From positions 1 through 64,000 of the forward strand of contig JACQCA010000014.1 of assembly GCA_016201865.1 (NCBI GenBank): a stretch of DNA of 64,000 nucleotides, read 5' to 3'. The notes below the pieces were generated by a model. The model had not been told where the DNA came from and did not search any database. It saw only the letters and a program-made list of their open reading frames with translations. This document shows, piece after piece, positions 2,757 to 18,127 of the stretch. The position numbers and the translations under genes are program-made. This DNA is from Nitrospirota bacterium (lineage in GTDB: Bacteria > Nitrospirota > Nitrospiria > JACQBZ01). Position 1 is the first letter of the stretch. Each line of letters opens with the position of its first letter.

Positions 2757-2789
2757 TAGGGGCATTTGTTTTTAAAGGAGCTTCTTCCC

Positions 2790-4169
2790 ATGGACGAGAA
2801 ACGCCCCACCGTTCTCATCGTGGATGATGATGAGGGCATCCGGGACACCTTAGAGGCGGTTCTTCGAAAGGACTACGCCGTCCTGAAGGCCGCCGACGGC
2901 CGGACGGCGCTCCAACTCGTCAACGAGCACGAGGTCCAGATCGTCCTTCTCGATCTGTTGCTGCCGGATCTCAACGGCCTGGAGGTGCTCCGGGAGATCA
3001 AGGACCGGTTTTCGGACATCGAAGTGATTATGATCACGGCCGTGAAAGAGGTGGGCGCGGCGGTCCAGGCGATGAAGCTCGGGGCCTATCATTACATCAC
3101 CAAGTCCTTCGACTACGACGAAATCCTGGCCCTGGTCGGGAAGGTGGTCCAGCGCCAGCAGGATACCCGTGAGCTTTTGTACCTCCGGTCCGAGATCGAG
3201 CAGCGGGCGGAGACCGAGTTCATCACCGGCCGGACCAAGAAAATGCAGGAGATCTATGACCTCGCCCAAAAAGTGGCGCGGCTTCCGGCGACGATCCTGA
3301 TCCTGGGCGAGTCCGGGACCGGGAAGCAGCTCCTCGCGCGGTTCATCCACAAACAGAGCAGCCTGGCCGATCGGCCTTTCGTCACGGTGGATCTTGCGGC
3401 CGTTCCGGAAACCCTGGTCGAGAGCGCGCTGTTCGGCCATGAGAAGGGCGCCTTCACCGGCGCCTACCGACAGCACATCGGAAAATTCGAGTTGGCGGAT
3501 GGCGGGACGCTGTTCCTGGATGAAATAGGCAACCTCCGGTCGGAACTGCAGGCCCGGCTGCTTCGCGCGATCCAAGAGGGCGAGGTCGAGCGGGTGGGCG
3601 GGAACAAAACCATCCGGGTGGATGTCCGCCTGATCTCGGCGACCCATGTGGATCTGGCCGAGGCCGTGCAGAAAGGGATCTTCCGGGAAGACCTTTATTA
3701 CCGGCTCAACGTCATTCCGATCAAACTCCCGCCGCTTCGCGAACGGATCGCGGACCTGCCCCAGCTCGTGGAGTTTTTCCTTCAACGGTACAACCGGCGC
3801 TTTAAAAAGAACGTCCGACAGATCGGCCAATCGGCCCTGGAAATGCTGTCTTCCTACGACTGGCCCGGCAACATCCGGGAACTGGAAAATCTGATCGAGC
3901 GATTGGTGGCCCTTTCCGAGGGCGATATGATCCTGAAAGAACACATTCCGCTGGAATACGGTCTCGGCGGCCTCAGTCACCCGGACTCGAACGACGGGCT
4001 GTTGAAAAGGGCTGTGGATGATTTGGAGCAGCGGCTCATTCTCAAGACGCTCGAAAAAGTAAAGTGGAACCGCACCGCCGCGGCCCGGATGCTCGGCATT
4101 TCCTTCCCCGCGCTTAAATACAAGATGAAGCGAATGAAGCTCGACCGATCTCTTCAACAAGAAGAATAG
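2790..4169 (+). CDS. NtrC-type sigma-54-dependent response regulator
   Basis: A 459-residue transcription activator with three domains. The receiver domain (about 8-125) has an acidic DDDEG cluster and phospho-acceptor Asp55 in LLDLLLPD. The AAA+ domain (about 145-375) has Walker A GESGTGKQ at 173-180 and the sigma-54-contacting GAFTGA loop at 220-225. A Fis-type helix-turn-helix ends the protein (RTAAARMLGISFPALKYKMK). ATG 2790 is chosen because AAAGGAG lies 9 bases upstream; an in-frame TTG at 2766 has no such support. No kinase gene adjoins it. Two sigma-54 promoters occur downstream in this window (8672, 13738), and the kinase at 11906 lacks a regulator of its own, so a regulatory link is possible but inferred. 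Confidence 0.92.
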   Translation: MDEKRPTVLIVDDDEGIRDTLEAVLRKDYAVLKAADGRTALQLVNEHEVQIVLLDLLLPDLNGLEVLREIKDRFSDIEVIMITAVKEVGAAVQAMKLGAYHYITKSFDYDEILALVGKVVQRQQDTRELLYLRSEIEQRAETEFITGRTKKMQEIYDLAQKVARLPATILILGESGTGKQLLARFIHKQSSLADRPFVTVDLAAVPETLVESALFGHEKGAFTGAYRQHIGKFELADGGTLFLDEIGNLRSELQARLLRAIQEGEVERVGGNKTIRVDVRLISATHVDLAEAVQKGIFREDLYYRLNVIPIKLPPLRERIADLPQLVEFFLQRYNRRFKKNVRQIGQSALEMLSSYDWPGNIRELENLIERLVALSEGDMILKEHIPLEYGLGGLSHPDSNDGLLKRAVDDLEQRLILKTLEKVKWNRTAAARMLGISFPALKYKMKRMKLDRSLQQEE

Positions 4170-4184
4170 CGCCGCGGCCTATCG

Positions 4185-6131
4185 ATGCCCCTTCCGCGCA
4201 TTCTCACGTCCGACCGGCCGGTCTTTGCTCTGATCGTTTTCACCCTCTTATCGTTCGCCGATCGTCCGGCCGTTGCGGATGAGACCGTCGCCTCATACGA
4301 AGTCCGTCTCGGCATAACGGCCACCACACCCGCCCGGCTGGAGGAGCCGGTCGAAGCGTCGCCAGGCTCCGTCTCGATCCTCACGGAGCCTGAGATCCAA
4401 GCCCGGAACCCGGTGTCGGTAACGGAGATCCTCAGGGACCTGCCGGGGGTGAGCCTTCAGGAGTCGGGGACGATGGGCGAATCGGCCGCGCTGACGCTCC
4501 GGGGAGCGGAGCCGACCCAGACACTGATTCTGTTGGACGGCATTCGACTGAACTCGCCGTTTCGCGGCGGCTTTGATTTGGGCAACTTGGTTGTGGATCA
4601 AATCGAGCAGGTGGAGGTCGTTCGGGGGGCGCAATCGGTTCTTTATGGTTCCGACGCGATGGGCGGGGTGGTCGATCTGAAGACTCGGAGAGGGAGGGGA
4701 TCGTTTGAGACCTCTCTTACGGCCGAGGCCGGTAACGAGGGGAGCGTTCGCGAGGTTTTATCGGTCGGCGAGGAGCGGCCGCGGGCGGACTATAGGCTGA
4801 CCGTTTCGCGCACCGACACCGATGGCCGGTTCGACCGCGACCGTTTCGGGGCATCGGCCTTCTCCGGGCAGGTGGGAGTTCCGATACGGGATACCGGCCG
4901 CCTCCAATTCATTTCGCGTTTTCAGATTGATCGCAAGGAGCTGGCCATCGACATCCTCCCGGTCTCGGCCGACACCGTCCAGGTCGTTTTTGATCAAAAC
5001 AACGAGCTCCAAAGGCGATTCGTTTTTCATTCCATCCAGCTCCAACATCGCGTCGCTTCGCGGCTTGAGCTGTCCTGGAAGGCGGCCGTGGTCAACACGG
5101 AGCTGAACTGGGACAATCCGGCCGATTCCGGACCGGCGAGCGGCGATTATTTTGAAAAGACGGATACGCGGACGCTCATTCTGGATCTTCAACAGAACCT
5201 TCTTCTCGGCCGATCCGATACGCTCTCTTTTGGGATCGAGCGGCAAAGGGATCAAGTCGACAGCACGATCGTCACGTTCGGGTCGTCATTTCCGGTCGAT
5301 CAATCCCGCGGGAACACCGCCTATTATCTCCAAAACCTGTTTAAGCGGGAAGACCGGCTTGTGGTTCAGGCCGGGGTCCGGCGGGATGAGAACGAAAGCG
5401 TCGGGCCGGTGACGAATCCGAAGATCTCCTCGGCGTATCAATTGAAATCCACCGGAACACGGCTGAGGGGAAGCTGGGGCACGGCGTTTCGCGCGCCCAC
5501 CATCCAGGAACTCTTCTTTCCCGTCTTCGGCAATCCGGACTTAAAGCCCGAGCGAAGCTGGAGCTGGGAGATGGGGCTTCAGCAAAAGTTCCTGGGCGAG
5601 GCCGTTCTTTTGGATGCGGTCTTTTACAGGATTGATTACCATGATCTGATTGAGAAGAGCCCGACCGGCGTGGCCAATATCGGCCGGGCCCGGACTCAGG
5701 GCGTCGAGTCCGACCTCACGATTCATCTCCATCCGACGTTAACCGCCAAGACGAATTATACCTATTTGAAAGCCACGGACCGAACCACGGATGAGGAACT
5801 GCCTTTTCGGCCGAGGCATCTTGGAAATATCGCCCTTCTCTACACGCCCACGGTTCATTTTATCGCCGAGATGACGATTCATATGGTTTCAAGCCAGGCG
5901 ATCACGGCCGATTTCATACTGCTGGACGGTTCAGTGCTGCAGGACCGAAGTCCGGGTTATACCGGCGTGGACCTGTCGGCCGCCTACCATCTTTTCGGCG
6001 GCGCCTTGGGTCTTCGAGAGAGCCGGATTTTTGTCCGGATCAAGAATCTCTTCGACCGGGAGCATCAAGACGTGCCCGGCTTTCCGGCGCCCGGAATCCA
6101 GTTCTGGACCGGCGTAACGGCGATGCTCTAA
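4185..6131 (+). CDS. TonB-dependent outer-membrane receptor (BtuB/CirA-like)
   Basis: A 648-residue outer-membrane transporter. A signal peptide (about residues 1-31) precedes a plug domain with SVSILTEPEIQARNPVSVTE, LRGAEPTQTLILLDGIRLN and VEVVRGAQSVLYGSDAMGGV, all hallmarks of TonB-dependent plugs. The rest is a predicted 22-strand barrel with the typical late motif WGTAFRAPTIQELFFPVFGNPDLKPE (paraphrased: FRAPT...ELF...G.P.LKPE). The substrate (cobalamin, siderophore or another metal chelate) cannot be told from sequence. It starts 15 bases after the response regulator stop, so co-transcription is likely. The protein ends TAML rather than in a terminal Phe. Confidence 0.88.
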   Translation: MPLPRILTSDRPVFALIVFTLLSFADRPAVADETVASYEVRLGITATTPARLEEPVEASPGSVSILTEPEIQARNPVSVTEILRDLPGVSLQESGTMGESAALTLRGAEPTQTLILLDGIRLNSPFRGGFDLGNLVVDQIEQVEVVRGAQSVLYGSDAMGGVVDLKTRRGRGSFETSLTAEAGNEGSVREVLSVGEERPRADYRLTVSRTDTDGRFDRDRFGASAFSGQVGVPIRDTGRLQFISRFQIDRKELAIDILPVSADTVQVVFDQNNELQRRFVFHSIQLQHRVASRLELSWKAAVVNTELNWDNPADSGPASGDYFEKTDTRTLILDLQQNLLLGRSDTLSFGIERQRDQVDSTIVTFGSSFPVDQSRGNTAYYLQNLFKREDRLVVQAGVRRDENESVGPVTNPKISSAYQLKSTGTRLRGSWGTAFRAPTIQELFFPVFGNPDLKPERSWSWEMGLQQKFLGEAVLLDAVFYRIDYHDLIEKSPTGVANIGRARTQGVESDLTIHLHPTLTAKTNYTYLKATDRTTDEELPFRPRHLGNIALLYTPTVHFIAEMTIHMVSSQAITADFILLDGSVLQDRSPGYTGVDLSAAYHLFGGALGLRESRIFVRIKNLFDREHQDVPGFPAPGIQFWTGVTAML

Positions 6132-6142
6132 CCGGTCTTTGA

Positions 6143-6178
6143 TTTACACCCCGCAGGCCGTCTGGTATAGTAGCCCCC
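6143..6178 (+). promoter_or_regulatory. Promoter giving a leaderless transcript of the TMTC-like gene
   Basis: TTTACA (6143-6148), a 17-base spacer and TATAGT (6166-6171). The GTG start codon is only 7 bases after the -10 box, at the expected transcription start, and there is no Shine-Dalgarno sequence, so the mRNA is probably leaderless. Confidence 0.55.
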
Positions 6179-8260
6179 GTGAGCAAGACGAAGCGGAACA
6201 AAGAGCGGCAAAGAGAGACCGAACCTCATCGGTTGCAACCGGCTGCTCCACAACAGAATCCGGAGGGTCGGGCATCCCGTTACGGCTGGCTTTTTCCACT
6301 GCTTTTAGCGGTCATCGTCAATGCCAATGTCTTGCTGAACGGCTTCGCCTGGGATGACAAGAAATTCTTCGTCGATCAATCGAATCCGGCTCGGAAGATA
6401 GACGGCCCCACCATTTCACCGGATGTTTATTACCGTCCGCTGATCGAGCGGAGTTACCGGTTCGATCAGGAAATCTGGGGTCTAAACCCCTTCGGCGCGC
6501 ATCTTCCGGTCTACCTGGCGCACGTTCTCACCACCGTGTTCATCTATCTGAATATTCTTGCCCTTCTGCGTCTCTACCGCAAAGACGAATCCATCGTCCT
6601 TCTGGCCGCTTCCCTTTTTGCCGTCCATCCCATCCATGCCGAGGCCGTGGCTTGGATCTCCGGGCGAAACGATGTCTACATGGCCTTGTTTATGATGGTC
6701 GCGCTCTATGCCTACCTGCGGTATCGACAGGGAATCGCATCCCGGATCATGCTCCCGTTATTCGCCTTGGGCTGTGTTCTCAGTCTGTTGAGCAAAGAGA
6801 CCGCGATCCCCTTTCTCATGATCTTCCCGGTCTTAGACGTTCTGTTTCACCGTTCGGGTGTGATCCCGCCTATGGCGGGCGGGGGGATGAAAGATCCTCT
6901 CATCTGGATCGGGGGCATGGCCCTCATCGCGTTTATCCTTTACCGTTTTTCCAACGTCCCAATGCCTTCGGCTCATCGAGAGGGGGCGGCATCGTTTGGA
7001 AATGAGATCATGACCCTGCTCATTGCGCTGGGCTATTACCTCAAATTGCTGTTCATCCCCTATCCCTTGAACCTGTTTGTCTCCGAGCTGCCGAAGGGAG
7101 ATCTTCAGGCGGCGTTCTATCTCGCGCTCGGAATCGGCGGAATCGCCGTGCTTCTTTGGATGCTTCTGCGATGGAGCCGTACGCTGTTTGCGGTGGGGGC
7201 GGTCTGGTTTGTGTTGGGCATGGCCGCCCCATTGGTGGTGCCGTTGGCCAAGGTCGCCGTGACGCCGGTGGCGGAGCGGTATACCTATCTTGCATCGGGG
7301 GGGTTCCTGTTGCTGGTGAGTCTCGGCATTTTTGAAGGCCGGCGGTGGATCGAAGCGCGGGTTGCCGCGCCGATGAATGCCCGATGGGTCGTCGGAGGCC
7401 TGCTTCTAATCGTGGGTCTGTTTTCCTGCCTCACCGTGGAGCGGAACGGCGTGTGGCGGGATGAGGTCACTTTATGGAAGGACACCATTCGAAAATCGCC
7501 CAAGGCGGTGTTGCCCCACAACAACTTGGGGGTCGTCTATAAAGATCTGGGACAATCCGAGCCGGCCTTGCGAGAATTCCAGACCGCCATCAGTCTGCAA
7601 GCGAACTATTTCCAGGCTCACTACAATTTGGGAATCATCTACGAAAAACTGGGACGGATCGATGAGGCGATCCAGGAATATCAGACCACGCTAAAGCTTA
7701 GACCGGACGATGGCCAGGCCCACAATAACCTGGGAATCGTCTATAAAGATCTCGGGCGGTTGGAGGAAGCCGAGAAGGAGTTTCAGGCCGCGCAAAGACT
7801 GCAACCGGATTCTCCCGTCGCCCACTACAATCGGGGCACCAGTCTGATTGAACAACGACGCTCGGAGGAAGCGATCCGGGAATTCCAGACCGCCGTCCGT
7901 CTGGACCCCAATTATCAAAACGCCCATTACAATCTTGGGCTGGCCTATGCCGACCAAGGAAAAATTCCAGAGGCCATTGAAGAATTTCAAACGGTCGTTC
8001 GCTTAAAACCGGACGATGCAGGGGCCCATGCCGTCCTTGGAGACCTCTATAAGGATCAGGGGAAGCTGAATGAAGCGATTGCCGAATATCAGGCCGCGCT
8101 GAAGCTTGATCCGAACCCGGTCGAGGTCCATTATAGTTTAGGTTTGGTTTACGGCCGCGCCGGGAAGTTGGAGGACGCGAAGAAAGAATATCAACAAGCT
8201 TTACAAATCAAGCCCGACTTCATTGCCGCCCGGAAGGCCTTAGAGTCCATCCCTCGATAA
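6179..8260 (+). CDS. TMTC-like multi-pass membrane protein with C-terminal TPR repeats
   Basis: A 693-residue two-part protein. The N-terminal half (about 35-425) is a multi-pass GT-C-type membrane domain beginning FPLLLAVIVNANVLLNGFAW, then DD at the first lumenal/periplasmic loop, and carrying HPIHAEAVAWISGRNDVY, a signature of TMTC-like O-mannosyltransferase relatives common in bacteria. The C-terminal half (about 444-690) has seven 34-residue TPR units (NLGVVYKDLG..., NLGIIYEKLG..., and so on). The likely role is glycosylation of periplasmic proteins, or assembly of them; the donor and acceptor are unknown. GTG is used as start and the transcript appears leaderless. Its last TPR resembles the fragment at 3-101, so the genome holds at least two paralogues close together. 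Confidence 0.8.
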   Translation: MSKTKRNKERQRETEPHRLQPAAPQQNPEGRASRYGWLFPLLLAVIVNANVLLNGFAWDDKKFFVDQSNPARKIDGPTISPDVYYRPLIERSYRFDQEIWGLNPFGAHLPVYLAHVLTTVFIYLNILALLRLYRKDESIVLLAASLFAVHPIHAEAVAWISGRNDVYMALFMMVALYAYLRYRQGIASRIMLPLFALGCVLSLLSKETAIPFLMIFPVLDVLFHRSGVIPPMAGGGMKDPLIWIGGMALIAFILYRFSNVPMPSAHREGAASFGNEIMTLLIALGYYLKLLFIPYPLNLFVSELPKGDLQAAFYLALGIGGIAVLLWMLLRWSRTLFAVGAVWFVLGMAAPLVVPLAKVAVTPVAERYTYLASGGFLLLVSLGIFEGRRWIEARVAAPMNARWVVGGLLLIVGLFSCLTVERNGVWRDEVTLWKDTIRKSPKAVLPHNNLGVVYKDLGQSEPALREFQTAISLQANYFQAHYNLGIIYEKLGRIDEAIQEYQTTLKLRPDDGQAHNNLGIVYKDLGRLEEAEKEFQAAQRLQPDSPVAHYNRGTSLIEQRRSEEAIREFQTAVRLDPNYQNAHYNLGLAYADQGKIPEAIEEFQTVVRLKPDDAGAHAVLGDLYKDQGKLNEAIAEYQAALKLDPNPVEVHYSLGLVYGRAGKLEDAKKEYQQALQIKPDFIAARKALESIPR

Positions 8261-8324
8261 AACGGCTCTCCTTACCCTCTCCCGTCCCGCAATGGAGCAG
8301 CCTTCAACACGATAAAAACGAAGC

Positions 8325-8367
8325 AAACCGAAAAAAATAATCCAGAATGGATCATTTTTTTCGGTTT
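8325..8367 (+). terminator. Strong hairpin terminator after the TMTC-like gene
   Basis: Two 20-base arms (8325-8344 and 8348-8367, beginning AAACCGAAAAAAAT) pair with one mismatch around a GAA loop. The A-rich left and T-rich right arms give the T tract of an intrinsic terminator and could act in both directions. Confidence 0.75.
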
Positions 8368-8671
8368 GATACATAATCCCATGTAATAAGGGAATTCTTG
8401 TACCCATGCCCGTCTGGTTCTGTAACCGATCAGTTAAATTTTGATCGGTCCCGGCCGGAAGATATCACGGCCATTGCCGGCAACTCGATCGTAACATTGA
8501 TCGGCATCAGAACACGAATCGTTATAAATGAATCGTCGCTTGGCCCGGCAGAATTCTATTGAAAATTAAACGGTCAAGTCTCCGAGGCGGTTTTTTATTG
8601 AATGCGATTCGACAAATCCGGCGCGTAGATTTCCGGCCCTGCCGGAGCGGCTGATCAAGGTTGCCCGCAAA
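8368..8671. promoter_or_regulatory. Upstream regulatory region of the peptide-maturase operon
   Basis: About 300 bases without a supported gene. It contains inverted repeats suitable for an enhancer-binding protein: CCGATCA (8426-8432) with TGATCGG (8442-8448), and CGATC (8486-8490) with GATCG (8499-8503). They lie about 170-250 bases before the sigma-54 promoter, the distance range expected for NtrC-family binding sites. Their function is inferred. Confidence 0.4.
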
Positions 8672-8688
8672 AGGCACGCCTCTTGCTC
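8672..8688 (+). promoter_or_regulatory. Sigma-54 (-24/-12) promoter of the peptide-maturase operon
   Basis: AGGCACG-CCTC-TTGCTC matches the sigma-54 consensus TGGCACG-N4-TTGCW, with the invariant GG (8673-8674) and GC (8685-8686) exactly 10 bases apart. Transcription would begin near 8698, about 43 bases before the ATG at 8741. Confidence 0.8.
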
Positions 8689-8740
8689 TTATAGCTTTCG
8701 TGTTCTCCATGCTGTTCATCCATGAGGGGAGGAGACAACC

Positions 8741-10090
8741 ATGAGACCTTCCAAGTTCAATGTCTTGGTTCCTAACTTCCCCCGTACCGGCGAGGTTCTT
8801 ATCTTTAATACTTTCTCCGATTCCCGTCTGGTAATCAACGAGCAGCTTAAAAGCGTCATGGACAGGGCCAAAGGCCTGACCGACTTAACCGTCCTGACGG
8901 AGGAGGAGCGAAGCCATTTGGAGGCGCTTCGGGACTTGGGCGTGATGGTGGATGAAGATGTCGACGAAGACCGGGAGCTTGAGTATTGGTTCCAGAGGCT
9001 TAAATTCGACACCGCCACACTGGACCTGACCGTCCTGACCACCTCGGCCTGCAATCTGGGTTGCACCTATTGCTTTGAAGAAGGAATCAATCTGAAGGGG
9101 TTTATGAAGGAGGAGACAAGCCTGCGTGTGTCGGCCTGGGCAGCACAGAAACTTGATGAGGTTCGTCCACGAACTCTCCACTTGACCCTTTTCGGCGGTG
9201 AGCCGCTCCTGAATCCTGAGGCTGCCCAGCTCTTGAGTCGCTCACTGTATAATTTAGCCCGTGCGCGCGGGATCGAACAAGAGATCAGCATCATCACGAA
9301 CGGAGTGCTCCTCACCGAGCAGATCGTCAATGACCTTACTCCCCTCGGACTCAAGCGGATCAAGGTGACGCTGGACGGGGATGAAGCGGCGCACGACTCC
9401 AAACGCCGGTATAAGAACGGAAAGGGCTCGTTTCAGGTCATCATCAAAAATCTTCTTGCCGTCAAAGGCAAGGCGCCTATTTCCATCGGAGGCAATTTTG
9501 ATGACACGACCCGAGAGAGCATTCCTCGGCTTTTGGATTACTTAATCGCCCGCGGGTTTACTCCTGATGACATCATGGATATGAGCTTCAAGCCGATTCT
9601 TTCTCCGACCGGCAGTCTCCCCGTTTTGAACAACGCGATGGACTCCGGCCATTCCTGCACCTTCTCGGACATGAAGGTCTCGGACATCGTGTGGTTGCAC
9701 GATGAGGTTGAGAAGCGGGGTTTTAAGAATACCATTGATGGAATCGCCCTCGGGCCCTGCTGCGCCACGCGGGAGCACACCTACACGATTGACCCTTGGG
9801 GGAAGATCTATAAATGCCCGGCGCTGGTCGGCCGTGAAGAGTACATCATCGGGGATGTCCATGAATCGCAGACGAATTATCGAAATACTCAATTTATGAC
9901 GGTGGATCTATGGCGCGATTCCTTCTGCCAACCCTGCGCCTACCGTCCGATCTGCGGCGGCGGCTGCCGCGGAAGTTCCGTCTCCCAGTCCGGGAATTTC
10001 GAAAAGATCGCCTGTGAGAAACCTTATTTCGACAATGTGGCCATTGAACTGGTCAAGAGGGAGTACCGCATGGAACAACAAATCCATTGA
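8741..10090 (+). CDS. Radical SAM/SPASM peptide maturase (RiPP-modifying enzyme)
   Basis: A 449-residue enzyme of the family that cross-links or epimerises ribosomal peptides. An N-terminal domain of about 95 residues (starting SKFNVLVPNFPRTGE) could bind the peptide leader. The radical SAM core has C104-x3-C108-x2-C111 (ACNLGCTYCFE) for the SAM-binding [4Fe-4S] cluster and the FGGEPLL strand. The C-terminal SPASM domain has GPCC...YKCP, then C396-x2-C399-x5-C405-x3-C409 and a further Cys (IACEKPYF), ligating auxiliary clusters. AGGAG lies before the ATG. The only nearby substrate candidate is the 25-residue peptide encoded 16 bases downstream. The arrangement recalls the 'geopeptide' class of maturases, but I cannot confirm the subfamily. 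Expression is predicted to depend on sigma-54. Confidence 0.9.
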   Translation: MRPSKFNVLVPNFPRTGEVLIFNTFSDSRLVINEQLKSVMDRAKGLTDLTVLTEEERSHLEALRDLGVMVDEDVDEDRELEYWFQRLKFDTATLDLTVLTTSACNLGCTYCFEEGINLKGFMKEETSLRVSAWAAQKLDEVRPRTLHLTLFGGEPLLNPEAAQLLSRSLYNLARARGIEQEISIITNGVLLTEQIVNDLTPLGLKRIKVTLDGDEAAHDSKRRYKNGKGSFQVIIKNLLAVKGKAPISIGGNFDDTTRESIPRLLDYLIARGFTPDDIMDMSFKPILSPTGSLPVLNNAMDSGHSCTFSDMKVSDIVWLHDEVEKRGFKNTIDGIALGPCCATREHTYTIDPWGKIYKCPALVGREEYIIGDVHESQTNYRNTQFMTVDLWRDSFCQPCAYRPICGGGCRGSSVSQSGNFEKIACEKPYFDNVAIELVKREYRMEQQIH

Positions 10091-10106
10091 AAGGAGGGAT
10101 GAAGCC

Positions 10107-10184
10107 ATGAAGCTACAGATTGTCAAGAAGGGGGAGAGGAAGATTAAGTCAAAACCATCGTTTTGTGGCTGGTACGCACGTTGA
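10107..10184 (+). CDS. Putative RiPP precursor peptide, 25 residues
   Basis: A very short gene, 26 codons with stop. AAGGAGG (10091-10097), which abuts the maturase stop codon, lies 9 bases before ATG 10107 and is one of the best ribosome binding sites in the window. The peptide has a lysine-rich N-terminal part, MKLQIVKKGERKIKSK, and a C-terminal part, PSFCGWYAR, holding its only Cys, Phe, Trp and Tyr. A basic leader with a Cys/aromatic-rich end is what a radical SAM maturase substrate should look like. A 14-bp terminator hairpin follows 17 bases later, so maturase and peptide form a closed two-gene operon. The modification, and whether the peptide is exported, cofactor-like or a signal, are unknown. 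Confidence 0.75.
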   Translation: MKLQIVKKGERKIKSKPSFCGWYAR

Positions 10185-10201
10185 GATCTTTAAGGTCGTA
10201 A

Positions 10202-10236
10202 AGAAAAGGGATCGCTTTGATGGCGATCCCTTTTCT
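10202..10236 (+). terminator. Perfect 14-bp hairpin closing the maturase-peptide operon
   Basis: AGAAAAGGGATCGC (10202-10215) and GCGATCCCTTTTCT (10223-10236) pair perfectly around a 7-base loop. The right arm ends T-rich, giving a probable intrinsic terminator that isolates the peptide gene from the gene at 10279. Confidence 0.8.
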
Positions 10237-10243
10237 AATATTA

Positions 10244-10278
10244 TTGACTAAATTTTCTCGCCGACTTATGCTGCCTAC
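10244..10278 (+). promoter_or_regulatory. Promoter giving a leaderless transcript of the oligopeptide-binding gene
   Basis: TTGACT (10244-10249), a 17-base spacer and TATGCT (10267-10272). ATG 10279 is 6 bases beyond the -10 box, so transcription and translation should start at the same place. No Shine-Dalgarno sequence is present. Confidence 0.55.
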
Positions 10279-11913
10279 ATGCTCAAGGAGCGAAGTAGAC
10301 CACTTTTTATCTTCGCGCTCTTCTTTTTTGCGGCAAACATTTCATGCAACCACACACTGCCATCGAACGAACAAACGACAGGCGACGCACTTATTATTCC
10401 CGAATACCAAAAGCCTGCCTTTGTTAATCCCTTATTGACTGAAACTACGCTTTCTGCAAGGTTAAGCGAGATCATCTTTGATGGCCTCATCCAAGTAGAT
10501 GAGCGTTTTGAGCCTAAGCCACATTTGGCCGAGTCCTGGGAGCGATCAAAGGATGGACGGACATGGACCTTTCATTTAAGACCAGGGGTTGGATTCCATG
10601 ACGGCATGGAGCTTACGGCCGAGGATGTAGCTTTTACATTCGGAAAGATGCAAGAGCTTCAAAATGGAATCCCTTTTGGCTTTATATTTCAGGACGTTGA
10701 CACCATAACAGTTGAAGATAAGTACACTGTTCGAGTCAAATTCAAAAACCCCATGGCTTCTCTCATTCAAGCCCTCGTTGTGGGTATCTTGCCGAAACAT
10801 CTGCTTGGTGGAGAAGATATCAAAAAGACTTCCTTCAACCAACATCCAATTGGCACCGGTCCCTATAAACTTAAATCGTGGTCCGAGAAAGAGATCATCT
10901 TAGAAGCCAACAACGATTATTTTCTCGGAAGGCCTCACCTTGATCAGATCCAAGTGAGAGTTTATCCCAACCGTGAGGCGGCCTGGGCGAAGCTCATGGC
11001 GGGAGAAGTGGATTTCTTTGATTTATTGACTCCTGACAATTATGAGATCCTAAAACAAGTTCCCACTTTTCATTTATATTCAGTTCCGATGCCGTACTAT
11101 TACCTTGTGGCCTTTAATCTTAAACAAAAGCTGTTTAGTGATCTGAGAGTCCGCCAGGCGCTCAATTATGCCATCAATAAAGAAGAAATCGTGGCCAAGG
11201 TCTTAAGAGGTCAGGGACAGGTCGCTGCCGAGACGATCTATCCTGGATCCTGGGCCTATAGTCCGGGTGTCAAACCCTATTCATATGATCCAAAGAGGGC
11301 GCTAACCCTCTTTAAAGAGGCTGGATGGGCGGACCACGATGGTGACCATTTTCTTGATAAAAACGGAAAACCTTTTGAATTCACGGTCAATGTGAATGAG
11401 GGAGATGACCTAAAACAGAAGGCATTGTTTTTCATCCAACAGCAGTTACTTGATATCGGGATCAGGATGAAGGTGATGCTTTTCGATGCCACCGACACCG
11501 GCTTCCTGTTTAAAAAGAAGTTTGATGCGCATTTCCCAGAAATCGTGGCGAGGGGCGATCCCGATTTCAGCTATAAATACTGGCATTCCTCGCAGATCAA
11601 GGATGGTTTTAATGTCTCTTCCTACCGAAACGGCAAGGTGGACCGGCTTCTGGAGGAGGGAAGGACCGAGTTTGACATGGAGAAACGGAAAGCCTTATAC
11701 TTCTCCTTCCAGGAAGAGATCCTCAAAGACCCTCCAGGGATTTTCCTTTTTTGGACGAATTATCTCGTCGGAGTCCACGAGCGCTTCAAGGGAGTTCAGA
11801 TCAGCCCTGTGGGTCCGTTTGCGAATATTCGGGAATGGTACGTTCCGAAGGCCGAACAAAAGTACACAGATACGAAATTCGGAGACCCGATCACTTTAGA
11901 AAAAGATGAATAA
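10279..11913 (+). CDS. Peptide-binding lipoprotein, ABC transporter solute-binding family 5 (OppA/DppA-like)
   Basis: A 544-residue extracytoplasmic solute-binding protein. A lipoprotein signal ends in AANISC (Cys at residue 23). The mature chain has family-5 features: ISARLSEIIFDGL-type opening (here TTLSARLSEIIFDGLIQ), LAESWERSKDGRTWTFHLRPG paraphrased as AESW...W.FHLR, DVAFTF, PIGTGPYKLKSW and LRVRQALNYAINKEEIV. Such proteins bind oligopeptides and either feed a permease or pass ligand information to a receptor. No permease or ATPase genes accompany it; instead it overlaps a sensor kinase gene by 8 bases, which favours a sensing role. Its base composition is clearly more AT-rich than the flanking genes, suggesting transfer. 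Confidence 0.85.
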   Translation: MLKERSRPLFIFALFFFAANISCNHTLPSNEQTTGDALIIPEYQKPAFVNPLLTETTLSARLSEIIFDGLIQVDERFEPKPHLAESWERSKDGRTWTFHLRPGVGFHDGMELTAEDVAFTFGKMQELQNGIPFGFIFQDVDTITVEDKYTVRVKFKNPMASLIQALVVGILPKHLLGGEDIKKTSFNQHPIGTGPYKLKSWSEKEIILEANNDYFLGRPHLDQIQVRVYPNREAAWAKLMAGEVDFFDLLTPDNYEILKQVPTFHLYSVPMPYYYLVAFNLKQKLFSDLRVRQALNYAINKEEIVAKVLRGQGQVAAETIYPGSWAYSPGVKPYSYDPKRALTLFKEAGWADHDGDHFLDKNGKPFEFTVNVNEGDDLKQKALFFIQQQLLDIGIRMKVMLFDATDTGFLFKKKFDAHFPEIVARGDPDFSYKYWHSSQIKDGFNVSSYRNGKVDRLLEEGRTEFDMEKRKALYFSFQEEILKDPPGIFLFWTNYLVGVHERFKGVQISPVGPFANIREWYVPKAEQKYTDTKFGDPITLEKDE

Positions 11914-13708
11914 GGTTTCAATCAAACTCATCATCATCTTGATTCTTTCGGCCTTGGTGCCCATGACTCTCTTCGGGATGATCGCGGTTTGGACGGCCCG
12001 CAAGACGGCCCGGGAGATCGTGGCGGAAGAAAATCTTCAGGTGGCGAAACGGGCCGCTCAACAGATCGAACAGCACATCACGAACAATACCATGGTCTTA
12101 GAAGCGCTGACTCAGAACCTGGCCAAAACAGATTTGAAGGATTGGCAAAAAGAACGTATTATTAAAAACTATACGCTCCAATTTGAACAGTTCCGCTCGA
12201 TTGATCTAACTGATCGTCTTGGTCGAACGGTGACGACCAGCCGATTGGATGCGTCGGCTCAGAATGAATCGCAAACCGAGGCGATCCGGACCGCGCTCTC
12301 CGGCGAAGTTTACCGATCCGAGGTTTTCATTTCCAAGAACTTCACCCCCGACATGACGGTTGCGATTCCACTCAAACTGCTGGGCGAAATCCATGGCGCC
12401 GTTGTGGGCGAGCTAAACCTCATCGAGATGTGGAGATTAGTGGACAGCATACGGATCGGGCGTGAAGGTCATGCGTTTGTCGTATCAAAAGAAGGTCTTT
12501 TGATAGCACACGGACTGGATTCGGCCAAAGAGCGGGTTTTTAGGCAGGAACAAATCGGCCAACTCCCGATCGTTCAATCGGCATTAAAAGGAGAAATGAA
12601 GTCGTTTATCTATGCCGATCAGGACCGTTTAGAACAAATCGGGGTGTCTGTTCCCATCCCGAGTCTGGGTTGGGCATTGGTCATTGAGCAGCCGACACGA
12701 GAGGCTTATGCCGCTGCCGCACGGCTGACGTATCAATTGACGATTCTCGTTGTCGTTTTCCTTCTTCTGATGATCCTGATCGGACTGATCGGTGGAAGGC
12801 GGTACATCGTGACGCCGATTCAGGATCTTATCCGTGGAATCCGTGCGGTAGGGGAAGGAAATTTAACCGACAAGGTTAAAATTTTAACACGGGATGAGTT
12901 CCGGGAATTGGGGGACGCCTTTAATCAAATGACGGAGCGCCTTTCGGCCCTAAAAGAGGATATCCGACGCAACGAACGGGCCGTCTTTCTCGGCCGGATC
13001 GCAAGCGGGCTTGTCCATGATTTAAGGCATCCGGTCAAAAACTTAGAGAACAGCAGCCATCTTGTGCTTAGGCATTTTGACGACTCCAAGATTCGTGACG
13101 TCTTTCGCGGGATTGTAGAACGGGAATTTCCGAATCTTAATCGCTTTTTCGATGATCTCTATAACCTGACGCGTCCGACACCCATCAGCCCCGTGTTGTT
13201 AAACCTTTCCTCTTTCATTAGCGACCTCTTGGAGCCTTTCCGGATCCATCCGCATTGCGTGATTGAAGGACCGGGCGGATTGCCCGTGAGCCCTTCAAAG
13301 CCCGGACCGCCCGAAGATAAAAAGATCCTGATTTCGGTCCGGATTAACCCGCCCGATCTGAAAGTCTGGGCCGATCGGTTCGGGCTTGAGCGGGTCCTCA
13401 AAAACGTGATCGTCAATGCCGTTGAGGCCATGCCGAAGGGAGGAAGGCTTTTCATTGCGGCCGAGACCGTGTCGCTTAAAGAATCGCCGGAGCCGAAGAC
13501 CGAGATCGCCGTTTCGGATACCGGCGGCGGCATTCCTCCCGAGCGACTCAACACCTTGTTTGTGGATTACGCCACGACCAAGCGCAAAGGACTGGGGCTC
13601 GGCCTGGCGATTTGTAAGAAGATCGCGGAGGAACATAAGGCCACGATCGAGGTTAAAAGCCGGCCCGGCTACGGAACCACCGTTATTCTCCGTTTCCCAA
13701 CCGCCTAG
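11906..13708 (+). CDS. Membrane sensor histidine kinase with dCACHE and HAMP domains
   Basis: A 600-residue kinase. TM1 is at about residues 8-28, a periplasmic double-CACHE sensor at about 35-270 (with AIPLKLLGEIHGAVVGEL and IGREGHAFVVSKEGLLIAHG), TM2 at about 273-295, then HAMP, a HisKA-like dimerisation helix with phospho-acceptor His371 in SGLVHDLRHPVKN, and a HATPase domain with an N box (NVIVNAVEAMPKGG), DTGGGIPPE and GLGLGLAICKK. All catalytic boxes are intact. Its ATG lies inside the end of the peptide-binding protein gene (8-base overlap), so the two are translationally coupled. CACHE domains bind small ligands such as amino acids. No response regulator is adjacent; the sigma-54 regulator at 2790 is a candidate partner. 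Confidence 0.88.
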   Translation: MNKVSIKLIIILILSALVPMTLFGMIAVWTARKTAREIVAEENLQVAKRAAQQIEQHITNNTMVLEALTQNLAKTDLKDWQKERIIKNYTLQFEQFRSIDLTDRLGRTVTTSRLDASAQNESQTEAIRTALSGEVYRSEVFISKNFTPDMTVAIPLKLLGEIHGAVVGELNLIEMWRLVDSIRIGREGHAFVVSKEGLLIAHGLDSAKERVFRQEQIGQLPIVQSALKGEMKSFIYADQDRLEQIGVSVPIPSLGWALVIEQPTREAYAAAARLTYQLTILVVVFLLLMILIGLIGGRRYIVTPIQDLIRGIRAVGEGNLTDKVKILTRDEFRELGDAFNQMTERLSALKEDIRRNERAVFLGRIASGLVHDLRHPVKNLENSSHLVLRHFDDSKIRDVFRGIVEREFPNLNRFFDDLYNLTRPTPISPVLLNLSSFISDLLEPFRIHPHCVIEGPGGLPVSPSKPGPPEDKKILISVRINPPDLKVWADRFGLERVLKNVIVNAVEAMPKGGRLFIAAETVSLKESPEPKTEIAVSDTGGGIPPERLNTLFVDYATTKRKGLGLGLAICKKIAEEHKATIEVKSRPGYGTTVILRFPTA

Positions 13709-13737
13709 GAATCCTACAGAAAAAAACCTCATCCGCC

Positions 13738-13754
13738 TGGCATGAGTCTTGCTT
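13738..13754 (+). promoter_or_regulatory. Sigma-54 (-24/-12) promoter of the signalling array
   Basis: TGGCATG-AGTC-TTGCTT fits the consensus TGGCACG-N4-TTGCW, with GG (13739-13740) and GC (13751-13752) 10 bases apart. It lies about 100 bases before the gene at 13855. Confidence 0.75.
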
Positions 13755-13854
13755 TTTCTCAATCACGAAAGATGCTTTTCCGACATTTTCCATTGAATCG
13801 AACCCACCGAAAGGCGGGCGAAGCCCGATCCTTTCGAAACGAATGGAGTGATCC

Positions 13855-15057
13855 ATGATGAAGGAACTCAAAAAAGCGATTGCAACCGCATCGAAGACGA
13901 TGGAGTCTCCGGCGATTCAGACGGGCGGTCTGACCGATCGTATTTTAGCCGAGGCGTTTCCGGCCGACGGTAAAACTCCGCCCGTCAAGATCCTGGTGAT
14001 CAGCGACCAGTACGACAATCGGTCCTTCTTGAGAAAGGAACTTCAGGCGGCCCATTACGACGTGATCATCGCCGAGAGCTGCGCGGAGGGCGCGGACTTG
14101 GCGGCGACCATCCGGCCCGACCTCATCCTTCTTGATCGGGCGGCTTCTCCGTTGGACGATTTTCAAACATGCGAACGGTTGAAAAACAATCCGATCACCC
14201 GCCGGATTCCGCTGATCTTTCTGAGCTCGCATCCGGAAGCGGAAGAAACCATCGCCGGCCTGGGGTTGGGCGCCGTCGATGATTATCTGGCGAAGCCGTA
14301 TATTCTCAATGAACTCCGGGACCGCATCCGAAAAGCGCTGGCGCGGCGGGATGAACAGCGGCGGTTTCGTCAGGAGATGCGGCGTTTCAAAAGCTGTTTC
14401 ATCGCGATGGTGTCGAACGAGATCCGAAACCAGGTCACCGTGATCACCGGCTTTGCCTCACTGTTGGAACAGAAGATGGATCGTTTGGAATCGTCCGCGC
14501 GTCAGGCCTATTTGAAGGAAGTCCTCCAGCACGCGGACTACCTTGCGGATCTTACGGACGGCTTTGACTGTCTTTTGGGCACGGAAGCGCCCACGGAAGA
14601 GATGGATCTGGTCCGGACCGTCAAGGCCGCGACGGAAAGGTTTCGCGGCCGGATTGAACAAAAAGGACAGCATCTGGTGATTGCGCCGACACCACCGGAG
14701 CCCCTCGTCATTCATGGAAGCGGCCATTCCGTATTCACGGCCGTCGGCCTTCTTCTCTCTCATGCCCATAAATTCACCGATCCGGGCGGGACGATTACCG
14801 TCGAGATCGTCCCCAAGGACGATCGTGCGCGAATCGAGGTGACCCATGCCGGCATCGGCATTGCGGGCGAGCGCAACGAGCAGGCTGCGGATGATGAAGA
14901 CGGGGGCCTCGGCCTGATCATGGCCCGATCGGTTGCGGAGCAGCACGACGGGAGCATGGGGGTTGCCGGTCAACCGGGTCGGGGAAGCCGTCTCTGGATC
15001 GAACTGCCCATAAAAGACGCGGACGCGCGGACGCGCGACGAGAACGGGGGGGATTAG
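13855..15057 (+). CDS. Receiver-kinase hybrid with degenerate kinase motifs (pseudo-kinase)
   Basis: A 400-residue cytoplasmic protein. A receiver domain (about 43-160) has the phospho-acceptor region LILLDRAASPLDD and the conserved Lys in YLAKPY. A HisKA-like helix follows, but where kinases have S-H-E-[LI]-R-[TN], this protein has SNEIRNQ: the phospho-acceptor His is Asn188. The HATPase domain is also eroded: the N box reads LLLSHAHKFTD (Asn replaced by His), and the G1 box reads THAGIGI in place of D-x-G-x-G; GGLGLIMARSVAEQH is kept. It probably binds or modulates a partner rather than phosphorylating. ATG codons at 13855 and 13858 are both possible. The next gene starts directly after its stop. 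Confidence 0.82.
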   Translation: MMKELKKAIATASKTMESPAIQTGGLTDRILAEAFPADGKTPPVKILVISDQYDNRSFLRKELQAAHYDVIIAESCAEGADLAATIRPDLILLDRAASPLDDFQTCERLKNNPITRRIPLIFLSSHPEAEETIAGLGLGAVDDYLAKPYILNELRDRIRKALARRDEQRRFRQEMRRFKSCFIAMVSNEIRNQVTVITGFASLLEQKMDRLESSARQAYLKEVLQHADYLADLTDGFDCLLGTEAPTEEMDLVRTVKAATERFRGRIEQKGQHLVIAPTPPEPLVIHGSGHSVFTAVGLLLSHAHKFTDPGGTITVEIVPKDDRARIEVTHAGIGIAGERNEQAADDEDGGLGLIMARSVAEQHDGSMGVAGQPGRGSRLWIELPIKDADARTRDENGGD

Positions 15058-16770
15058 ATGATTCAGTTGCTTCGCGTATTGATCGTGGAGGATTCGAAAG
15101 ACGATGCGGCTTTGCTGGTGCGGGAACTTGAGCGGGGCGGGTACAAACCGGAATTCAAACAGGTGGACACGGCCGCCTCGATGAGCGATGCGCTGGATCA
15201 GCAGACGTGGGACGTCGTGCTCGCGGACTACAGCCTGCCGCAATTCGACGGTCCGTCGGCCTTGGCGCTGCTGCAAGGCAAGGGATTCGACCTGCCCTTC
15301 ATCATCGTGTCCGGAAGCGTCGGGGAAGATATTGCGGTGGCCGTGATGCGGGCCGGGGCGCATGATTATATCATGAAAAACAACTTAAGCCGTTTGATCC
15401 CGGCCGTCGAACGGGAGCTGAAAGAGGCGGCCGAACGACGGGAGCATCGCAAGGCCGAGGAAACGATCCGGTACTTGGCGTATTACGACGGGCTGACGAA
15501 CCTTCCCAACCGCAGCCTGCTCCAGGATCGTCTTCAGCAGGCCATTCTCACCGCGCAGCGCGATAACAAGCCGCTGGCCCTTTTGCTGATGGACCTGGAT
15601 CACTTCAAGGAGATCAACGACACCCTGGGCCATCATTGCGGGGACCTGCTTCTGCAGCAGGTGGGATTGCGCCTGCGGCATGTGTTGCGGGAATCCGACA
15701 CGGCGGCGCGCCTGGGCGGGGATGAATTTGCGATGCTCCTGCCGCTGGCGGCCTCCGAGCATGCGATGCTGGTCGCGCAAAAGGTGTTCAAGGCGATGGA
15801 GGCGCCGTTCATCGTTGAAGGTCTGACGATGAATGTCGAGGCCAGCATCGGCATCACGATCTACCCCGATCACGGGGCGAATCCGGAGGGCCTGATGCAG
15901 AGGGCGGACGTGGCGATGTACGAGGCCAAACAAAAGGGCAGCGGCTGCGTTATCTATGACAGCGCGCACGACCGGCACAGCCATCGCCGTTTGACTCTGA
16001 TGGGGGAGCTGCGCCATGCCATCGACGACGGCCAGCTCTTTCTGCATTACCAACCGAAGATCAGCCTCCAAACCGGCCGGGTCATCGGCGTCGAGGCGCT
16101 GGTGCGTTGGCTTCATCCGCAGCACGGAATGATCCCGCCGGTCCAGTTCATCGCGCCGGCCGAACAGACCGGCCTCATCAAGCCGCTCACCCTGTGGGTA
16201 CTTAATACGGCGCTCGGCCAATGCCGGACCTGGCGCCGGACCGGTCTTGAACTTCCCGTCTCGGTGAATCTGTCGGCCCGAAACCTGCACGATCCGCAAC
16301 TGCCGGATCAGGTCGCCGGACTGCTTCAGAGCAACGGCGTGCCGCCGGCCGGATTGGCGCTGGAGATCACCGAGAGCATCATCATGGCCGACCCGGCGCA
16401 TGCCCTGGAGACGCTCCTGCGTCTGAGCAAGATGGGGATACAAATTTCGCTGGACGATTTCGGCACGGGCTATTCGTCTCTGGGATATCTCAAAAAACTG
16501 CCCGTTCATGAGATCAAAATCGACAAGTCCTTCGTCACGGACATGGTGCGGGATGAAAGCGACGAAATGATCGTGCGCTCGACGATCGATCTGGGACACA
16601 ATCTGGGCCGCCGGGTCGTGGCCGAAGGCGTAGAACAGCAAGCGACGTGGGAGCGGCTGACCGCTTTGGGTTGCGACGCGGCCCAGGGCTATTACATGGG
16701 CCGACCGATCCCTGCGGCCGAACTGACCCGGTGGCTCGGCGAGTCGCCCTACGGTTTAAAGAGTGTCTGA
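15058..16770 (+). CDS. Response regulator with GGDEF and EAL domains (c-di-GMP turnover)
   Basis: A 570-residue REC-GGDEF-EAL protein. The receiver (5-125) has LIVEDSKDD and [11 protein letters not shown]. The GGDEF domain has an intact [10 protein letters not shown] (220-224) and the RxxD inhibitory site RESD (211-214) correctly spaced before it. The EAL domain is catalytically complete: EALVRW at 346, [22 protein letters not shown] and AEGVE. It can in principle both make and degrade c-di-GMP. It follows the pseudo-kinase gene with no gap, so the two are co-expressed. A close paralogue sits at 18128 and a decayed third copy at 20672. Confidence 0.92.
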
Positions 16771-16805
16771 CGATTTCTCGAGTCGAAAAACAACGCGCCC
16801 GGAGA

Positions 16806-18029
16806 ATGAGTTTGCTTTTGCTTGGAGTCGGCGCCGCCGCTGCGGCAGTGATCGCGTGGGGCTGTTTCCTTTTTAAGCGTGATTTCGTCGGACGAACGCG
16901 CGCGGAAGAAGGGCGCCGCGCGGCCGAGGCGCGCTTTGCGGGCGTCGTTGAGATCGCCGCGGAAGCGATCATCTCGGCGGATGAGGACCAGCGCATCGTC
17001 CTTTTCAACCGGTCCGCGGAAGAGATCTTCGACTACCGGGCCGAGGCCGTCCTCGGCCGTCCGCTCGACCTGCTTCTTCCGGCGCGTTTTACCGCGGCGC
17101 ACCGCCGACACATCCGCGGCTTTGCCGCGGCGCCGGAAACGGCCCGGCGCATGGGCGAGCGCCGTGAGATTTTCGGTCGTCGTAAAGACGGCACGGAGTT
17201 CCCCGCCGAAGCCTCCATCTCCAAATTTACGCAGCGCGGCCGGACGCTCTTTACCGTCATCCTGCGCGACATCACCGAGCGCAAGCGGACGGAGGAAGAG
17301 CTGAGGGAATACCGCGAGCGTTTGGAGCACCTGGTGAAGGAACGCACGGCCGAACTGGAGGCGGCCAATAAAGAGTTGGAGGCCTTCAGCTATTCCGTTT
17401 CACACGATCTTCGCGCGCCCCTCCGGGGAATCGACGGCTTCAGCCAGGCCCTTCTCGAAGATTATTCCGATCAGCTGGACGCGGAAGGAAAAAACTGCCT
17501 CCGGCTCGTGCGGGCGGCCACCCAACGGATGGCGCAACTGATCGACGACTTGCTCAATCTCTCACTCGTGACGCGCAGCGAGATGCACCGTGAAAAGGTG
17601 GATCTGAGCGCCCTGGCCCGGGCGATCGCTGCCGAACTCCGTAAAACGACGTCGGAGCGGGACGCGACGTTTGAGATTGCGCCCGGATTGGTCGTGGAAG
17701 GCGACGCGCGGCTTCTGCGGATTGCGCTTGAGAATCTGCTCGCGAATGCCTGGAAATTTACGTCCAAACGTCCGCGGGCGAGGATCGTGTTCGGTCGGAC
17801 AACCCAGGCCGACCGGCCGGTCCATTTCGTGCGGGACGACGGCGCCGGTTTTGAGATGGCCAATGTCCATAAACTCTTCGGCGTGTTTCAGCGCCTCCAC
17901 GGGACGGCCGAGTTCCCCGGCACCGGAATCGGATTGGCGACGGTGCAGCGGATCATTCATCGTCACGGCGGCCGCGTCTGGGCCGAAGGCGTCGTGGACC
18001 AGGGCGCGACGTTTTATTTTACGCTTTAA
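16806..18029 (+). CDS. PAS-domain sensor histidine kinase (bacteriophytochrome-kinase-like)
   Basis: A 407-residue kinase. One hydrophobic segment opens the protein ([20 protein letters not shown]), then a PAS domain (about 45-165, with [20 protein letters not shown] and [10 protein letters not shown]), a coiled coil, HisKA with His in [17 protein letters not shown], and HATPase with [20 protein letters not shown] and GTGIGLATV. The start at ATG 16806 is chosen because longer in-frame starts lie inside the preceding EAL gene; the ribosome binding site is weak. The C-terminal half is paralogous to the kinase at 19848, so [REC-GGDEF-EAL]-[kinase] is a duplicated unit here. Confidence 0.85.
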
Positions 18030-18044
18030 CCGGGGGAGAAAGCG

Positions 18045-18116
18045 ATGGCGGACAAAACAATCCTGTTGGTGGAGGACAATTCGGACGACGAGGCCCTGAC
18101 GCTTCGGGCCTTATAA
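18045..18116 (+). pseudogene. Truncated response regulator (first 23 residues of a receiver domain)
   Basis: MADKTILLVEDNSDDEALTL followed by RAL and a stop. This is the beginning of a stand-alone receiver protein of the type often found after phytochrome-like kinases, with the acidic pocket intact but everything beyond the first helix missing. GGGGGAG lies before the ATG. The stop is 11 bases before the next gene, so the body was probably deleted rather than interrupted. Confidence 0.75.
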
Positions 18117-18127
18117 CGGGGACCTGA

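Follow-up and report, generated by a model that had tools for sequence, protein, structure and literature searches.

A radical SAM/SPASM enzyme is encoded directly upstream of a 25-residue peptide in a Nitrospirota bacterium, and this locus raises the question of what the pair makes and where the product acts. An earlier interpretation made from the DNA letters (the sequence-only reading) had described an uncharacterised, sigma-54-driven RiPP maturase/precursor pair whose product may act inside the cell. The window is the whole stretch of DNA that we analysed, 64,000 nt corresponding to positions 1-64,000 of contig JACQCA010000014.1 (assembly GCA_016201865.1; Nitrospirota bacterium, Nitrospiria, JACQBZ01). 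Its gene order is NtrC-type regulator, TonB receptor, TPR gene, maturase, precursor, binding protein, Cache kinase and then receiver proteins. The features are:

2766..4169, + strand: NtrC-type response regulator (receiver, sigma-54 activation AAA+, Fis HTH; Pfam PF00072, PF00158, PF02954)
4185..6131, + strand: TonB-dependent outer-membrane receptor, BtuB/CirA-like (PF00593, PF07715; PDB matches CirA, BtuB)
8671..8687, + strand: sigma-54 -24/-12 promoter (strict consensus at 9/12 homologous loci; rpoN in own genome)
8741..10090, + strand: radical SAM/SPASM RiPP maturase with N-terminal beta3-alpha3 (RRE-like) domain (Pfam/NCBIfam, alignment, AlphaFold model)
10091..10097, + strand: Shine-Dalgarno AAGGAGG of the precursor gene (sequence; purine-rich Shine-Dalgarno ahead of all 8 homologues)
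10107..10184, + strand: 25-aa precursor peptide MKLQIVKKGERKIKSKPSFCGWYAR (8 homologues, codon-position divergence, HMM search of 396 genomes)
10202..10236, + strand: terminator-like perfect 14-bp inverted repeat in the precursor/binding-protein gap (sequence; comparable hairpins in the same place in G003, G008, G029 and G012)
10244..10272, + strand: sigma-70-type promoter TTGACT-N17-TATGCT of the binding-protein/kinase operon (10/10 homologous loci)
10279..11913, + strand: extracellular solute-binding protein family 5 (PF00496; best PDB match AppA 1xoc; co-distribution with maturase)
11906..13708, + strand: membrane histidine kinase dCache_1-HAMP-HATPase_c (PF02743, PF00672, PF02518)
13855..15057, + strand: receiver + histidine kinase, peripheral (Pfam; syntenic in closest relatives)
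15058..16770, + strand: receiver-GGDEF-EAL protein, peripheral (Pfam; syntenic in closest relatives)

The maturase and its precursor

The maturase has 449 aa. Its radical SAM motif CxxxCxxC is C104/C108/C111 and its SPASM cysteines are C340, C359, C396, C399, C405, C409 and C425. All ten, which the sequence-only reading had called intact, are invariant or at least 90% conserved in an alignment of 31 homologues, and the SPASM model TIGR04085 is matched at 55 bits over a cut-off of 27. The nearest NCBIfam family is the geopeptide maturase TIGR04280, with scores of 297.7 bits (window), 292.5 (G003) and 256.7 (G065), all below the 400-bit cut-off; the next families, also under their cut-offs, are CefB, TIGR04463, FlmE/OhkG, Clo7bot and PapB. 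Orthologous maturases are 66-79% identical within the class and about 50% identical in the genomes of another class, here labelled f23; among the 15 best matches, no plasmid homologue was above 30% identity. An AlphaFold model (pLDDT 82.5, pTM 0.82) has as its best PDB match the thioether-forming maturase CteB (5why), aligned over its length. The high-pLDDT N-terminus of the model (E7-11, E18-23, E28-33, H34-43, H54-65, H76-88) has the beta3-alpha3 shape of an RRE; no RRE family matched this N-terminus.

The maturase stop and the precursor ATG (10107) are separated by 16 nt, with AAGGAGG 9 nt before the ATG and the stop codon at 10182-10184, an arrangement that can be read directly in the sequence as described earlier. 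Downstream of homologous maturases, in two classes, we found 8 full precursor homologues, all with a Shine-Dalgarno sequence, including MKMKIVKKGERKTRSAPPSCPVFIR (G003), MKIVKKGERKVKIKRAYCTWFVG (G008), MKIKIIKQGMKKNKPNPSMCPWFIH (G029), MKIIKKGEKKVKSTPVHCTFLIG (G065), MKIVKKGDRKEKGTPTQCLFMIW (G105), MKIIKKGDRKENSKPVYCMFFIM (G109) and MKVIKKGIRKEDLKPVFCQFWLT (G089). At a ninth locus, in G004, the contig begins with the last codons of the precursor, (x)GG-Y-V-G-stop. K7, G9, K12 and C20 are invariant in the 8 homologues; K-G-x-x-K is found in all leaders, the fuller pattern being K-I-[IV]-K-K-G-x-[RK]-K, and the C-terminal core follows P-x-x-C-x-[WFV]-[FYWLM]-[AIVL]-x. Each of the 8 has a single Cys, always six residues from the C-terminus (five residues after). 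The conservation of Cys and aromatics, put forward as a check in the sequence-only reading, holds for the Cys and, as a class, for the aromatics, with at least one at C+2/C+3 in 8/8; the individual aromatic residues vary, and no conservation is seen for the Phe at C-1.

Divergence by codon position was 0.38/0.33/0.65, and by this comparison the precursor ORF is under protein-level selection. A profile built from the eight homologues was used to search 396 Nitrospirota genomes; the confident matches were confined to the 8 source genomes, all of which have the maturase, with one other marginal match (E=0.008). We therefore reject a chance ORF, given the invariant residues, the codon-position selection and the co-distribution in the 396-genome search. 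Judged by these homologues, the enzyme and the 25-residue peptide have been passed on as a pair in two bacterial classes. Enzymes of the SPASM type work on precursors that are guided by a leader, and this one very probably alters the 25-aa peptide chemically.

The expectation that such a small frame lies next to homologous maturases was borne out at the 8 loci and in part at the ninth, but not in G012, where no precursor is found 3' of the maturase and the maturase frame continues to the terminator. This locus (L052) retains the promoter, maturase, terminator, receptor, binding protein and kinase without the precursor, possibly a recent loss. No precursor was found elsewhere in the genomes of G012 or G035.

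Neighbouring genes and their co-distribution

TonB receptors import scarce ligands, and binding proteins that lack a permease can serve sensor kinases. The binding protein has a signal peptide and a lipoprotein-like Cys; besides AppA, it has weaker PDB matches to NikA and CntA. No permease gene lies near its gene, which the kinase gene overlaps by 8 nt. The kinase is syntenic in G003, G004, G008, G029, G012 and the f23 genomes. The NtrC-type regulator, whose likely start is the ATG at 2790, has syntenic orthologues in G003, G004, G008, G012 and G035, and another on contig C53 of the same genome. In the precursor-kinase interval of two loci (L119 in G004, L049 in G029), family-5 binding-protein genes are found in tandem duplicate, the first copies having a signal peptide without the lipoprotein-like Cys.

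The order in G003 is that of the window without the TPR gene (regulator, receptor, maturase, precursor, PF00496 protein, Cache kinase, receivers), and in G008 the locus is divided between two contigs. The f23 genomes keep the maturase, precursor, binding protein and kinase; inspection of their neighbourhoods found no TonB receptor adjacent to the maturase. As the sequence-only reading correctly stated, there is no exporter or peptidase gene at the locus; the flanking receptor, activator, binding protein and kinase went unmentioned there. Among the neighbours examined, there is likewise no conserved inner-membrane permease or metal gene.

Among 58 relatives, the maturase is present in 7. Binding-protein orthologues (at least 54% identity) occur in 6/7 of these maturase genomes and in no other of the 58, where the next best match is 40%; in the seventh, G035, the maturase lies at a contig end. 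All 7 have a receptor orthologue, and the 69%-complete G006 has a fragment of one. Presence is patchy within genera (in g10, G029 present and G013 absent; in g14, G035 present and G017 absent), which argues for inheritance of the maturase, receptor and binding protein as a unit, to judge from 58 genomes that are not independent of one another.

The gene at 6179-8260, between the TonB receptor and the maturase, encodes a membrane protein with many TPR repeats and is found there in this genome only. We rejected it as part of the system; no counterpart of it separates receptor and maturase in G003, G004, G029, G035 or G012. At the other end, both peripheral genes have counterparts: for 13855-15057, a blastp homologue in G004 and a receiver-like gene at the equivalent place in G003; for 15058-16770, a homologue in G004 and a gene at the equivalent place in G003. 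Within 15058-20615 of the window, two receiver-GGDEF-EAL-like genes (15058-16770 and 18128-19855), each followed by a kinase-like gene, form an apparent local duplication.

Promoters and control

The promoter recognised in the sequence-only reading was confirmed. The sigma-54 element aaGGCACgcctcTTGCtc has GG at 8673-8674, N10 and GC at 8685-8686 and lies 54 nt 5' of the maturase; its score was reached by 0/500 shuffles of the upstream region. Strict elements are present at 9/12 homologous loci (0.018 expected from first-order shuffles) and near-strict elements at two more, the element being absent only at G008, whose upstream sequence amounts to 176 nt. Across the genome of this bacterium, forward and control counts of the pattern were equal, so only the conserved position of the element carries weight. 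RpoN is encoded in this genome and in 9/10 genomes tested. Sigma-54 promoters require an NtrC-type activator; the GG-N10-GC element, RpoN and such an activator, features of a sigma-54-dependent operon, are all present at sequence level.

Between the precursor and the binding-protein gene, TTGACW-N17/18-TANNNT was found at 10/10 loci (0.026 expected). From the conserved sigma-54 and sigma-70 elements, expression of the maturase and precursor appears to be inducible, and that of the sensor genes to be driven separately and perhaps constitutively. The inverted repeat AGAAAAGGGATCGC/GCGATCCCTTTTCT at 10202-10236, earlier read as a perfect 14-bp terminator, does pair perfectly over 14 bp, though a clean run of T is missing. 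A search for enhancers gave TTKAAAATCA upstream of several promoters and a shared 8-mer in 5/12 loci, equalled by 4/200 shuffled sets. In the upstream regions of the 12 loci, no motif reached significance as an enhancer for the NtrC-type protein.

Relationship to geopeptides

In a tree with long outgroup branches, the window and f23 maturases form a clade with 99/99 support, which is sister to the geopeptide maturases (TIGR04280). The description 'uncharacterised' holds for function, but the maturase has a curated family as its sister group. Distant maturases of the phylum (~30% identity) score 549-585 bits and are true geopeptide maturases (5/5 tested by protein); they form a separate clade in the same tree, subject to its long outgroup branches. 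The precursor of the window has no TIGR04229 match (E up to 1), nor do those of G003, G065 and G105 (E up to 10). We rejected the locus as a geopeptide locus on two features, the maturase, which is under the TIGR04280 cut-off, and the precursor, which has neither a TIGR04229 match nor CC.

Geopeptide precursors lie upstream of the maturase and have CC (15 aligned), whereas that of the window lies downstream and has one Cys and aromatics. Comparison of the two precursor profiles gave P=6e-4 but a probability of 28% over 19 columns; in this weak alignment, the leader I-x-x-x-K-G and the position of the first Cys are similar. The layouts agree in having a TonB receptor upstream and a binding protein and sensor kinase downstream. 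A receptor gene lies on the precursor side of the maturase at 11/12 geopeptide loci inspected; the five loci followed by Pfam have a PF04392 binding protein in the neighbourhood; and 4/4 kinases tested have HAMP plus Cache and/or HATPase domains. PF04392 and the PF00496 of the window are unrelated families in the same slot. The sigma-54 promoter is a feature of the window that sets it apart from the geopeptide system. With its single-Cys precursor and sigma-54 arrangement, the window system is a distinct variant beside geopeptides.

We know of no function for geopeptides, though curated family models exist. The literature that we searched does not mention geopeptides by name, and we found nothing relevant in it on Nitrospirota RiPPs or on SPASM enzymes with TonB receptors. 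Two loci (L067/L070 in G120 and G123) have geopeptide-like precursors (MAKRIAVKKKAMKKKATKKKAAKKK...TTCCAGALIRI) 5' of the maturase; their long leader is a Lys/Ala repeat of histone-H1-like composition.

Comparison with other known systems

The CefB family (NF038107) is the second-best match and equals geopeptide for the f23 member tested. However, window-family scores are 229-258 bits against a cut-off of 600, and CefB is named for a precursor with Cys at every fifth position, unlike that of the window. With the SCIFF/ranthipeptide enzymes (CteB, TIGR03974; PapB, NF047865), the maturase shares the seven SPASM cysteines and, for CteB, the best full-length fold. It falls under both the TIGR03974 (101.7 bits against 425) and NF047865 cut-offs, and SCIFF/ranthipeptide precursors have six or repeated Cys motifs where the window precursor has one Cys.

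In the methanobactin system, the TonB transporter MbnT is accompanied by MbnE, an OppA/AppA relative that serves as periplasmic binding protein (PMC7558416). The window, too, has a short Cys peptide beside a TonB receptor, with a binding protein of the OppA/AppA type. It differs in having another maturation enzyme, no methanobactin precursor, and a kinase and sigma-54 control; a Pfam scan of the large ORFs in 2766-16770 (other than the maturase, itself a radical SAM enzyme) found no MbnB/MbnC. For uptake, methanobactin is the closest analogy in operation; the window locus would resemble it in outline and is not a member of that system. In clusters for isopeptidase-type lasso peptides, a TonB transporter likewise accompanies the RiPP, and regulation resembles that of siderophores (PMC9266682); their chemistry and enzymes are different, and sigma/anti-sigma pairs take the place of a binding protein, kinase and NtrC-type regulator.

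A proposed mechanism and its alternatives

The case for a RiPP maturase/precursor pair is strong, as the sequence-only reading had it: the ORF follows maturases at 8 loci and is confidently found only in maturase genomes. Beyond this pair, we infer the modification and its chemistry, cleavage/export, recapture, the identity of the ligand, the pairing of kinase and regulator, and hence the loop. We think it probable on balance that the RiPP is secreted, retrieved by the TonB receptor and sensed by the binding protein and kinase, with feedback through sigma-54. The RRE-like domain of the maturase would bind the K-rich leader, and the radical SAM/SPASM centre would modify the nine-residue C-terminal core. 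The likeliest modification is a single thioether formed by the only Cys, or else a cross-link involving an adjacent aromatic. An unlinked protease and exporter would release the product, which the TonB receptor would recapture, alone or with a ligand such as a metal. The family-5 binding protein would then bind it and the Cache kinase report to the NtrC-type regulator, which would fire the sigma-54 promoter of the maturase and precursor, the sensor genes being on their own sigma-70 promoter.

We favour this retrieve-and-sense reading because of the precursor orthologues with their invariant Cys, the SPASM/CteB-like fold, the conserved promoters, RpoN, the co-distribution of receptor and binding protein, and the recurrence of this layout among geopeptide loci, where the binding protein belongs to an unrelated family. 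Against it stand the lack of an exporter or peptidase at the locus, the f23 genomes with no nearby TonB receptor, G012 with no recognisable precursor and the lack of a significant enhancer motif for the NtrC-type protein; TonB/binding-protein/kinase modules may also exist without RiPPs. As a tentative extension, a real possibility rather than an expectation, window-type and geopeptide loci could be two branches of one such general system, in which a radical-SAM-made peptide leaves the cell, comes back through a TonB receptor of its own and is picked up by an orphan binding protein dedicated to it, while a Cache kinase reads it and controls its synthesis. The fold of the binding protein would have been exchanged and its slot kept.

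The retrieve-and-sense reading can take two forms, each doubtful when taken singly. The loop could be closed: what is sensed would be the secreted peptide, as a signal of cell density or for self-recognition. This would suit a permease-less binding protein whose gene overlaps that of a Cache kinase, and inducible-looking peptide genes with separately promoted sensor genes; moreover, a ranthipeptide role in clostridial quorum sensing is reported in work cited in PMC8102284. A TonB-dependent importer would, however, be unusual for a small signal, and the partner response regulator of the kinase is only putative. Rather unlikely is a metallophore working as methanobactin does, a secreted peptide that binds metal through its modified Cys region and returns via the TonB receptor to the family-5 binding protein, the kinase and regulator sensing metal or metallophore status. 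The pairing of MbnT with the OppA/AppA-related MbnE (PMC7558416), the BtuB/CirA-like receptor, the AppA, NikA and CntA matches and the one invariant Cys in the core are consistent with this form. Yet one Cys among mostly hydrophobic residues would bind metal poorly if left unmodified, and the neighbouring genes examined include neither methanobactin-type maturase genes nor a conserved inner-membrane permease or metal gene. As the kinase adjoins, we lean slightly to a pheromone over the reporting of metal or cargo.

An intracellular product, that is, a PQQ-like cofactor or protein modifier with the envelope genes as mere neighbours, would explain a very short precursor, the absence of exporter and peptidase, and the f23 genomes with no nearby TonB receptor. 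We consider it improbable, and do not favour the earlier suggestion of action inside the cell: the genes inherited with the pair encode a TonB receptor of the outer membrane, an exported solute-binding protein and a Cache-type histidine kinase, the receptor and binding-protein orthologues co-distribute with the maturase, patchily within genera, and the geopeptide clade has a matching layout. That the 25-aa ORF is a leader or regulatory small protein and not the maturase substrate seems very improbable; its place directly before the terminator and G012, with a maturase but no such ORF, would fit, but not the codon-level selection, the strong Shine-Dalgarno sequence, the Cys invariant at -6 or the co-distribution with a SPASM maturase. 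The layout offers a testable proposal for the role of orphan SPASM peptides, which may be envelope signals or metallophores. If the retrieve-and-sense reading is true, the Nitrospirota would have a new RiPP class, one that is self-sensed and whose unusually small, single-Cys precursor would suit the determination of a new maturase chemistry.

Additional copies and contig breaks

The assemblies break repeatedly in or at the maturase/precursor genes (G000 C43, G004 C54/C21, G012 C22/C72, G035 C38), as if strain variants or near-identical copies exist. The genome studied here has a second locus on contigs C43 (L054) and C53 (L118). C43 carries a maturase copy that is 88% identical, has a sigma-54 element of its own and is cut by the contig end; C53 carries copies of the NtrC-type regulator (81%) and TonB receptor (67%). 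The ends of C43 and C53 share sequence, so the stretch between the copies seems to contain several genes, one of them for a large PKD/RCC1 surface protein. The second TonB receptor gene, on C53, has one in-frame TAG.
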